A stretch of DNA of 20,252 bases from Candidatus Saccharimonadota bacterium. Lineage in GTDB: Bacteria > Patescibacteriota > Saccharimonadia > Saccharimonadales > Saccharimonadaceae. Numbering within the stretch: position 1 is the stretch's first letter; every line of letters starts with the position of its first letter. A program made the translations under genes and the position numbers. Positions 8,750 to 19,122 of this stretch are shown here, piece after piece. The DNA is taken from the NCBI GenBank assembly GCA_030527565.1, contig JAUNAO010000008.1, positions 1 through 20,252 on the forward strand, written 5' to 3'. Below the pieces are notes generated by a model. The model was given only the letters and a program-made list of their open reading frames with translations, did not search any database and was not told the origin of the DNA.

Positions 8750-9103
8750 TGGTGGAGCTGCCGGATACTGCCTCCGGGTCCGAAATACCACCTGGATACC
8801 ATTCTACGTATATAGTCTATCGTTTCGTCTTAGCAATTGCCGCCAGCTGCGATAAACAGAACGAGCGGCTGCCGTGGCAAAATTTTCGAATAATTCCTTG
8901 CCGGAAGAACTACCTTAGCCTCGTAATATAATAATTTACGACCTACGAGAAATTGGACGTAAACCAGCCTAAGTTAAATTAGGCAAAAGCTGGCATGTAA
9001 GCAACATGCGCAGTTTTCGTGTTTTTTACACTTATTAATACTTACGGTATTCAATCGACACGCCTGGCATCTGTTAATAATCCGTCTAAGCTTTGTCAGC
9101 CCC
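8750..9103 (-). ncRNA. ssrA: Transfer-messenger RNA (one-piece tmRNA)
   Basis: tmRNA rescues stalled ribosomes by acting as an alanyl-tRNA and then as a short mRNA for a degradation tag. The RNA is 354 nt. Its ends pair as a 7-bp acceptor, GGGGCTG with CAGCTCC, including the G3-U70 alanine identity pair, and are followed by A and an encoded CCA. A UUUCGGAC element precedes the T-arm, as in other tmRNAs. The probable tag frame ends in PAFA-stop (stop codon at 8979-8981), and the stop lies in a stem GCCTAA/TTAGGC as expected for helix 5. Upstream codons read VKNTKTAHVAYMPAFA, but the resume codon is uncertain (GUA at about 9029 aligns with the E. coli GCA). A pseudoknot follows: TTTACG/CGTAAA plus CTCGTA/TACGAG. 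The T-stem CCGGA/TCCGG is perfect, but its 7-nt loop is GGCAGTA instead of the usual TTCRANT. Confidence 0.93.
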
Positions 9104-12430: not shown

Positions 12431-12771
12431 GACGATGAGCCGTCAGTAAGCCGGGTTCTGTAATCTTACAGAAGTAAAACCGATGATCATCTATCTAGGC
12501 ACTACATTGCTATAGCACTCGAGCGGTGAGCGTGCATCCTCGGGTCGAGGTTGATAGCACTCCTTGCAACAGGTAGGGTTTGCCGCCGCATCGTATCGCT
12601 ACAACGCGCTGTGAGCTCTTACCTCACTCTTTTCACCCTTACCTCCGAAGAGGCGGTTTTGTTTCTGTGGTACTTTCCCTATCCTTGCGGACGGTCGCCG
12701 TTAGCGACTACCATTCCCTGTGTTGCCCGGACTTTCCTCTTGTAAAAAACAAGCGACCATCTTTCAGGCTC
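12431..12771 (-). ncRNA. rnpB: RNase P RNA (bacterial type A-like)
   Basis: This is the catalytic RNA that removes 5' leaders from tRNA and tmRNA precursors. The minus strand carries the near-universal 5' block GAGGAAAGTCCGGGCAACAC and the 3' block ACAGAACCCGGCTTA, which pair to form P4, plus GGCAAACCC and GCCTAGAT. P1 is formed by GAGCC (12767-12771) with GGCTC (12437-12441). The length is about 340 nt. Where L15/L16 normally presents a GGU that pairs with tRNA CCA, I see only a short hairpin (12532-12560) with no GGU. It is transcribed from a promoter buried in the 3' end of the Nudix-RNase H gene and stops at the terminator shared with rpmB. The exact 5' and 3' ends are estimates. Confidence 0.95.
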
Positions 12772-12777
12772 CAACAG

Positions 12778-12807
12778 ATTATATCACGGGGTTCAAGATC
12801 TGGTCAA
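12778..12807 (-). promoter_or_regulatory. rnpB promoter, inside the 3' end of the upstream gene
   Basis: On the minus strand, TTGACC (12802-12807), 18 bp, then TGA-TATAAT (hexamer 12778-12783). The -10 overlaps the stop codon of the Nudix-RNase H gene. Start of transcription is predicted at about 12771. Confidence 0.8.
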
Positions 12808-13633
12808 TAGCTTCGTTTGCTTCGGTGTCAGCAACGACGTTCGAAGAACGCTGGACGTGAGTAAATGAAACATTTTCGAAATTCTTTAATAATTCTTTAA
12901 TGTCTCGATAAATTGGCATGATGTCTTTATTTTTTACCGAGAAAATACCGTTGAGTTGGTTAACTACCATTAGGCTATCGGAAACAAAGCGGACTGACTT
13001 TAATCCCTTTTCAATTGCTAATTCAACACCTTTTCGCATGGCATAATATTCGGCCACCCTAGAAGTTGCGAAGCCAATGAATTCGCCGCCTTGCGCAATG
13101 ACTTGGCCGGCACTATCGTAGATACAATAGCCGATTCCGGACGGCCCCGGATTGCCTCGCGAGGCGCCATCAACGTACACGGTTGCGGAATTCGCAGTTG
13201 AGCGCGGGGTTGTATTATTTGGCGTAAGTTTATTTTCCTCGATTTCAAACACGGAAGCGGAGGCTTCGCTAAGATGGACTGTTGTTTCGCTAGGATCTTT
13301 AATGAATTTATAGGCAGTATAGCGTCCGAGAGGGTTTATTTTCTGGTCCTTGGAAATACCAACTTCGTAAACTATGTAAAGATTGCTCAACCGACTAGCG
13401 CCCTCTAACCCGAGAAAAGTGATAACATCTTTTAACTTAACCGAAGTTGCGGTAAGCCCGGTAAACTCAGCCAAAGCGCGCGCCATGGCTTCTTCTGGCT
13501 GTTCGCCAAACTTAATCTTCCCGGTTGGGAGCTCCCAAAAAACCGGCGCCTCAGAACGGGACCGGCTTCGTTTCAAAATTAGAACCCCGTTTTCGTTTCT
13601 AACAATTCCAACTACTCGAATTCTCTGTTTCAT
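12779..13633 (-). CDS. Nudix-like domain fused to RNase HI
   Basis: The product is 284 aa from the ATG at 13633. Residues about 1-110 form a Nudix-type fold with the box at about 38-60, but the box is degenerate: the REUxEE core reads RALAEF, so two of the metal-binding glutamates are missing. Hydrolase activity is doubtful and the domain may only bind a nucleotide or RNA (inference). Residues about 149-284 are an RNase HI domain with an intact catalytic set: Asp155 (YVDGASRGNPGP), Glu195 (AEYYA), Asp219 (VSDSLMVV) and Asp269 (NVVADTEAN). This domain should cut RNA in RNA-DNA hybrids. A GTG two codons upstream (13639) is possible, but AAAAGAG lies 5 nt before the ATG and abuts the GTG, so I prefer the ATG. 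It has its own promoter and a structured leader of about 145 nt. Confidence 0.88.
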   Translation of the reverse strand: MKQRIRVVGIVRNENGVLILKRSRSRSEAPVFWELPTGKIKFGEQPEEAMARALAEFTGLTATSVKLKDVITFLGLEGASRLSNLYIVYEVGISKDQKINPLGRYTAYKFIKDPSETTVHLSEASASVFEIEENKLTPNNTTPRSTANSATVYVDGASRGNPGPSGIGYCIYDSAGQVIAQGGEFIGFATSRVAEYYAMRKGVELAIEKGLKSVRFVSDSLMVVNQLNGIFSVKNKDIMPIYRDIKELLKNFENVSFTHVQRSSNVVADTEANEAIDQILNPVI

Positions 13634-13639
13634 GCCCAC

Positions 13640-19004: not shown

Positions 19005-19034
19005 TTGCCAAAAAACGAGAAAATGTGATATAAT
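19005..19034 (+). promoter_or_regulatory. tRNA-Gly promoter
   Basis: TTGCCA (19005-19010), an 18-bp spacer, then TGA-TATAAT (hexamer 19029-19034). The precursor would carry about 5 nt of 5' leader before the tRNA at 19046. Confidence 0.8.
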
Positions 19035-19045
19035 GTATTTAACGT

Positions 19046-19122
19046 GCGAATGTAGCTCAGTTGTTTAGAGCGCTTCCTTGCCAAGGAAGAGGTCGAGAGT
19101 TAGAGTCTCTTCATTCGCACCA
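19046..19122 (+). tRNA. tRNA-Gly (GCC), CCA encoded
   Basis: The 77-nt cloverleaf is complete. The acceptor is GCGAATG/CATTCGC with discriminator A and encoded CCA. The D-stem is GCTC/GAGC, the anticodon stem CTTCC/GGAAG has loop TTGCCAA (anticodon GCC), and the T-stem is GAGAG/CTCTT. The D-loop reads AGTTGTTTA where AGTTGGTTA is usual (G19 to U), and the T-loop reads TTAGAGT where TTCRANT is usual (C56 to A). The two changes together would swap the G19-C56 tertiary pair for U19-A56. A T6 run follows CCA directly and probably ends transcription. Confidence 0.97.

Follow-up and report, generated by a model that had tools for sequence, protein, structure and literature searches.

The window, by which we mean the whole stretch of 20,252 nucleotides that was analyzed, is contig C50 of a 595 kb genome (61 contigs, 95% complete) that we assign to the Saccharibacteria (GTDB class Saccharimonadia). 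It carries a tRNA-Gly(GCC) gene that was detected by both ARAGORN and Rfam (19046–19122/19119, + strand; Table 1). The RF00005 match scores 70.1 bits and ranks third among the 33 tRNA matches of the genome. All four stems are paired, with a single G-U at 49-65, and the gene has the cloverleaf, the GCC anticodon, and the score above the Rfam cut-off that are expected of a functional elongator. A likely -10 box ends 11 bases upstream of the gene, and a box resembling it was also seen by eye 5' of the gene in the relatives displayed.

The D-loop AGTTGTTTA reads A14 G15 U16 U17 G18 U19 U20 U20a A21 and the T-loop reads U54 U55 A56 G57 A58 G59 U60. With U19 and A56, the gene departs from the canonical G19 and C56, and the Watson-Crick character assigned to its 19-56 pair derives from covariation only. 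The original prediction of U19 and A56 in an otherwise intact tRNA-Gly was verified by ARAGORN, Rfam, and stem-pairing numbering, and the nearby tRNA-Cys is canonical, as had been stated (G18 and G19 with U55 and C56).

Table 1. Positions of the features discussed, in window coordinates unless a genome and contig are given.
Feature	Position	Strand	Basis
TATAAT, likely -10 box	19029..19034	+	by eye
tRNA-Gly(GCC), CCA encoded, discriminator A73	19046..19122	+	ARAGORN, Rfam
D-loop AGTTGTTTA (14-21)	19059..19067	+	numbered by stem pairing
U19 (canonical G19)	19064..19064	+	stem-pairing numbering
Anticodon GCC	19080..19082	+	ARAGORN
T-loop TTAGAGT (54-60), U54 and A58 intact	19100..19106	+	
A56 (canonical C56), predicted to pair with U19	19102..19102	+	
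tmRNA	8750-9103	-	Rfam (87.5 bits), missed by ARAGORN
Class A RNase P RNA	12432-12772	-	Rfam (229.9 bits)
286-aa frame, putative Nudix hydrolase joined to RNase H domain	12779-13639	-	by eye
tRNA-Thr(UGU), source genome	G000:C33:1708-1780 (L028:1501-1576)	+	Rfam (54.2 bits), missed by ARAGORN
tRNA-Gly(CCC), source genome	G000:C21:26155-26226 (L030)		
AlaRS, source genome	G000:C14 (L362:755-2635)	-	

Only one of the 33 tRNAs of the source genome is a Gly(GCC) gene according to ARAGORN and Rfam. ARAGORN recovers 32 of the 33 Rfam tRNAs, and the sole-gene claim holds because the remaining one is Thr(UGU) by its anticodon loop. The one-contig relative G131 likewise has one Gly(GCC) gene among 43 tRNAs, and the second, canonical tRNA-Gly(GCC) that the original prediction proposed looking for was found in neither set. 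The same 77-nt gene occurs letter for letter in 19 further genomes of the genus; it is the only such gene in a 95% complete genome and is conserved in relatives. The best reading is that it would serve as an ordinary elongator, and as the sole one for GGC/GGU codons.

Several further elements were observed around these genes. The RNase P RNA of the window lies ~6.3 kb from the tRNA-Gly gene. In several congeners, partial or decayed copies of the 3' half lie downstream of tRNA-Gly (26–31 nt with 97–100% identity in L044, L047, and L049, spaced 83 bases apart in L044), and L052 has a downstream copy with the D and T arms in which the anticodon arm is replaced.

Joint change of positions 19 and 56

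Among 244 evenly drawn class genomes surveyed with the TAGCTCAG/AGAGC D-arm pattern, U19/A56 was found in 198 and A19/U56 in 117, and neither form of one-sided change was found in any of them (A, C, or U19 with C56, 0/244; G19 with A, G, or U56, 0/244). At least one switched tRNA was present in 235/244 genomes by hand count. Three of the nine remaining genomes have a switched Gly outside the pattern (Gly(GCC) in G227 and G084, Gly(UCC) in G095), and another, G192, has a switched Pro. In a sample of 286 genomes from the phylum, non-G19 together with non-C56 was observed in 25/25 class genomes and 10/261 other genomes; the 10 non-class Patescibacteria all have A19-U56. The 43 switched rows of this sample are all U-A or A-U. 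Mismatched combinations (U-U, A-A, A-G, U-G, C-A, and C-U) were looked for in this phylum sample and, using the D-arm type of Pro, in 274 class genomes; neither search yielded one.

When 84,980 species genomes were scanned for Gly(GCC) with A56, leaving position 19 free, at least 118 stretches were recovered. Of the 118 listed, 96 are named as Saccharibacteria or Saccharimonadales, two as Nomurabacteria, and one as Streptomyces, whereas 19 bear none of these names. ARAGORN called Gly(GCC) in 114 of them and called no tRNA in the Streptomyces stretch. All 145 ARAGORN Gly(GCC) calls have U19, where 114 calls come from the A56 scan (among the matches listed) and were chosen for A56 but not for position 19. 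The remaining 31 calls represent the gene of the window itself and its nearest copies, with the window gene counted twice. A C56 Gly(GCC) pattern, in turn, matched 0/28 class genomes and 29/276 non-class genomes, all 29 with G19, which serve as a positive control and not as a frequency because the pattern is narrow. Related genomes with G19-C56, which had been named in advance as a refutation, were seen with this pattern only outside the class. Fifteen additional best matches, taken from the same genus or order, comprise 11 intact Gly(GCC) genes, all switched (six U-A and five A-U), two stretches without a call at contig ends, and two other tRNAs (Asp and Ala).

A corrected parse placed 418 distinct class-I tRNA sequences, leaving out Leu, Ser, and Tyr as well as one Gly and one Arg that were unplaceable, and tRNAs missed by ARAGORN are absent from it. 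At 19-56 these are 322 G-C, 48 A-U, 46 U-A, one U-U, and one G-U, i.e., Watson-Crick in 416/418 by script, although only the joint distribution is meaningful, not the frequencies, because switched tRNAs for Gly, Ala, and Pro are overrepresented in the set. The lone U-U is a placement artifact and is A19-U56 by hand. The lone G-U is a second tRNA-Trp(CCA) in the one-contig relative (G131:C1:76607-76682) with G19-U56, the only non-Watson-Crick case in the set. Among 90 distinct Gly(GCC) sequences, 42 are U-A, 22 are A-U, and 26 are G-C, and these three states are the whole set. By corrected mutual information, 19-56 ranks fourth of 2278 column pairs in these 90 sequences, after three helix pairs; the alternative pairing 19-55 is possible in 22 of them and 19-57 in none. 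The covariation counts cover Patescibacteria, and the patterns detect two D-arm types.

Across what was searched, these surveys show one-sided, apparently broken 19-56 pairs to be nearly absent. Judged from gene sequences, the one-for-one swap is a class-wide saccharibacterial trait with repeated covariation, and its spread across the class makes it ancestral or near-ancestral. The original prediction of real covariation rather than decay is borne out by the 0/244 one-sided changes together with the identical and class-wide genes, and its suggestion of a lineage-wide quirk agrees with the lack of canonical Gly(GCC) in 28 class genomes and the 11/11 switched extra genes.

The direction of the pair has also changed within the class. 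On an AlaRS tree, the Gly(GCC) state (U-A or A-U; 17 class rows) changes at least seven times, a number that is approximate since the tree does not cleanly reflect species relationships, with the non-class G320 and G491 placed among class rows. The tree was a quick maximum likelihood reconstruction from 27 proteins of 31 loci; four loci were dropped (G444, G515, G062, and G346), having no frame by the motif filter. With one labelled non-class genome added, seven changes were again obtained, six of them forced by well-supported branches. Close relatives give the same picture: G181, from the same genus, has a tRNA-Gly with A19-U56 that over 55 nt differs from the window tRNA at 19 and 56 only, and Ala(UGC) of G178 and G022 differs from that of G109 and G148, in the window's genus, only at 19 and 56 over the compared stretch. 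These comparisons show that one and the same tRNA has repeatedly exchanged U-A for A-U or the reverse.

Isoacceptors carrying the switch and the second elbow contact

In the source genome, Gly(GCC) is U-A, Ala(UGC) and Ala(GGC) are A-U, and Ala(CGC) and Gly(CCC) retain G19 and C56. Of the three tRNA-Ala genes detected there, two show the mirror switch A19-U56. Since switched and unswitched isoacceptors coexist in one cell, 19-56 does not act as a fixed identity element. Four of the 43 tRNAs are switched in the one-contig relative (Gly(GCC) as U-A; Ala(GGC), Ala(UGC), and Pro(UGG) as A-U), and in 693 kb of G061 the only switched tRNA among 36 called is Gly(GCC). Pro(UGG) with A19-U56 was found in 48/274 class genomes, all 49 rows being A19-U56. 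Among the matches listed, nearly every switch is in a tRNA for Gly, Ala, or Pro; a few genomes have a switched Gly(CCC) or Gly(UCC), and Val(GAC), His(GTG), and Thr(GGT) are represented by single switched genes. The 10 non-class switches are distributed over Gly(GCC) (four), Ala(CGC) (four), His (one), and Thr (one). The tRNA-Gly(CCC) of the source genome, like that of L070, has C55 in place of U55 and retains G18, G19, and C56.

The neighboring contact 18-55 varies as well. The 93 tRNA-Cys genes in relatives comprise 26 with A18/G55 and 65 with G18/U55, plus two that by inspection are numbering artifacts, and there is no clear one-sided change. Position 19 is G and 56 is C in the A18/G55 examples (L099, L119, L169, and L178). 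A18 combined with G55 also occurs in one initiator tRNA (G227, L327:224-298) and in the Thr(UGU) of the source genome, which has the anticodon loop CTTGTAA, the D-loop AGTTAGTA (A18 G19), and the T-loop GGCAGAG (G54 G55 C56 A57 G58), a further T-loop change in addition to A18/G55. A regular-expression scan of the fetched loci found no further tRNA like it. As the A18/G55 genes of tRNA-Cys, the initiator, and Thr(UGU) show, the two partners of the 18-55 contact change together, too. By eye, the tmRNA of the window appears to have AG for GG in the D-loop and GGCAGTA as the T-loop, much like Thr(UGU); a pattern search found no tmRNA in relatives.

Synthetases and competing explanations

Canonical Patescibacterial tRNA-Gly(GCC) (29 genes, 26 distinct sequences) shares the cloverleaf, the anticodon, and similar arms with the switched gene. 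The canonical non-class genes have G19-C56 and U73, whereas the class genes have U19-A56 or A19-U56 and A73. A link to the discriminator base was ruled out, as the four switched non-class Gly(GCC) genes, all A19-U56, also have U73. Suppressor tRNAs with altered D/T-loop pairs were reportedly selected in the Steinberg laboratory and indicated that other pairs can work; those are selected variants, whereas the saccharibacterial switch is natural, class-wide, and recurrent. Natural departures from the canonical D/T-loop contacts are described for tRNA-Pyl, which is without either interloop pair, and for bovine mitochondrial tRNA-Ser(UGA), which is built on the scaffold of tRNA-Pyl and uses 16-55 and 17-56 with an altered core (PMC6337575). 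In contrast to both, the window tRNA retains the canonical core and swaps the Watson-Crick pair at 19-56.

That the two bases reflect a sequencing or assembly error, a single-strain variant, or a pseudogene has a vanishingly small probability: the window belongs to a draft genome of 61 contigs, but 19 other genomes from the genus carry an identical gene and the switch is present class-wide, which refutes error and decay independently. A dedicated, non-translational tRNA for peptidoglycan synthesis, as in staphylococci, was the specialized role raised by the original prediction and is highly improbable. The resemblance lies in the glycine isotype and the altered D-loop GG, position 19 included; as described in passages of PMC4052509, the non-proteinogenic isoacceptors of S. 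aureus have UU or CU at 18-19 and the weak EF-Tu pairs A49-U65 and A51-U63 in place of the strong pairs G49-U65 and G51-C63. The window tRNA differs from them in having G18 U19, in having position 19 changed together with its partner A56, and in keeping the strong pairs G49-U65 and G51-C63. Moreover, the non-proteinogenic type in S. aureus is extra to a proteinogenic isoacceptor, whereas the window tRNA is the sole GCC gene found, as it is in the one-contig relative, and Ala and Pro tRNAs undergo the same change.

Changes in the synthetases offer a possible, though doubtful, explanation, according to which tRNA-Ala and tRNA-Gly lost their requirement for G19-C56, or had it altered, through the loss of the C-Ala domain of AlaRS and through a dimeric GlyRS. 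The search for AlaRS covered 24 class genomes and 14 others, and in two of these 38 (G084 and G279) a contig end cuts the gene. In the 36 uncut genomes the matches span the catalytic and editing regions and stop at profile positions 690–713 of 847, barring G072, in which the match reaches 770 through a stop codon. The AlaRS of the source genome has 626 aa, its last residue corresponding to position 698 of the 876 in E. coli AlaRS, and its Pfam matches are to the catalytic and SAD domains only; with E. coli AlaRS 699–876 as the query, tblastn (E up to 1) found no match in either the one-contig G131 or the 693 kb of G061. The C-Ala domain thus seems to be absent from AlaRS of the class and of the other sampled Patescibacteria, and in other organisms it is described as binding the elbow or D-loop of tRNA-Ala (PMC10036535; PMC10485164). 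Dimeric GlyRS was above the cut-off in 35/38 genomes. However, C-Ala is also missing where no switch was detected (e.g., G276, G280, G296, and G311), for which reason its loss would be at most permissive; as a sufficient cause it was ruled out, being present across the phylum sample. In G227, G065, and G515, Gly(GCC) is switched although dimeric GlyRS falls below the cut-off, and the Pro switch is left unexplained. Active recognition by a synthetase is unlikely because Ala(UGC) is A-U and U-A within one genus and Ala tRNAs are G-C and A-U within one genome. According to PMC9976931, leucine identity in E. coli involves both G18-U55 and G19-C56, which implies that partners differ in what they need from the elbow. 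We found no open-licence paper combining Patescibacteria, alanyl-tRNA synthetase, and tRNA. Absence of TruB was rejected as a cause, given a TruB match in G131; none was found in 693 kb of G061, whose other 67 kb may carry TruB. A tblastn search with E. coli DTD (E up to 1) was likewise without a match in both G131 and those 693 kb of G061.

Less probable still is selected tuning, in which a weaker A-U or U-A elbow would soften the tRNAs of the strongest codons (GGN, GCN, and CCN) and equalize accommodation and rejection. The near confinement to Gly, Ala, and Pro among the matches listed and the switched set of the one-contig relative (4/43 tRNAs) are consistent with such tuning, and codon-strength tuning is known in the anticodon arm at 31:39 and 32:38, as described in passages of PMC11231383. 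On the other hand, Arg is G-C in 19/19 distinct sequences, several of them reading CGN, and lone Val, His, and Thr switches exist among the matches listed. Ala(CGC) and Gly(CCC) of the source genome remain G-C, G061 is switched only in Gly(GCC) among the tRNAs called, and the isotype bias may stem from few founding events, with patterns that cover two D-arm types. A broader version seems similarly unlikely: a two-class elbow, in which Gly, Ala, and Pro tRNAs would have a selected, weaker, and freely interconvertible A-U/U-A pair whose stiffness follows the strength of codon-anticodon pairing, the translation system having been released from constraint as C-Ala and perhaps other elbow readers were lost. 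If it were true, 18-55 and 19-56 would be evolvable tuning knobs instead of invariants.

Pairing geometry at the elbow

The explanation we favor, with a probability of roughly 0.85, is that the gene encodes an elongator tRNA-Gly(GCC) in which G19-C56 was replaced by U19-A56 under selection for the Watson-Crick geometry of the elbow and not for base identity. In PMC6337575 both G18-U55 and G19-C56 count as invariant, and PMC4810234 presents the exposed face of G19-C56 as a stacking surface for the ribosome and many enzymes. With the ribosome, RNase P, and maturation enzymes stacking on the 19-56 platform, selection would protect the Watson-Crick geometry of this exposed surface and not its letters, and in the switched isotypes no remaining partner would read G19 or C56 as such. 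For Ala, the loss of C-Ala, a domain that elsewhere holds on to the tRNA elbow, may well have been a permissive condition.

We found no report of the switch in Saccharibacteria in the titles or abstracts of the open-licence papers that our searches listed. A class that swaps G19-C56 in compensation, and does so repeatedly within a genus, amounts to a natural double-mutant series, and it poses the question of whether the elbow requires G and C themselves or whether any flat Watson-Crick pair suffices. The switch is also relevant to the annotation and engineering of tRNAs and to how the reduced translation systems of Patescibacteria are understood. The genes compared here suggest that nature conserves the pairing at the elbow and lets its letters vary.
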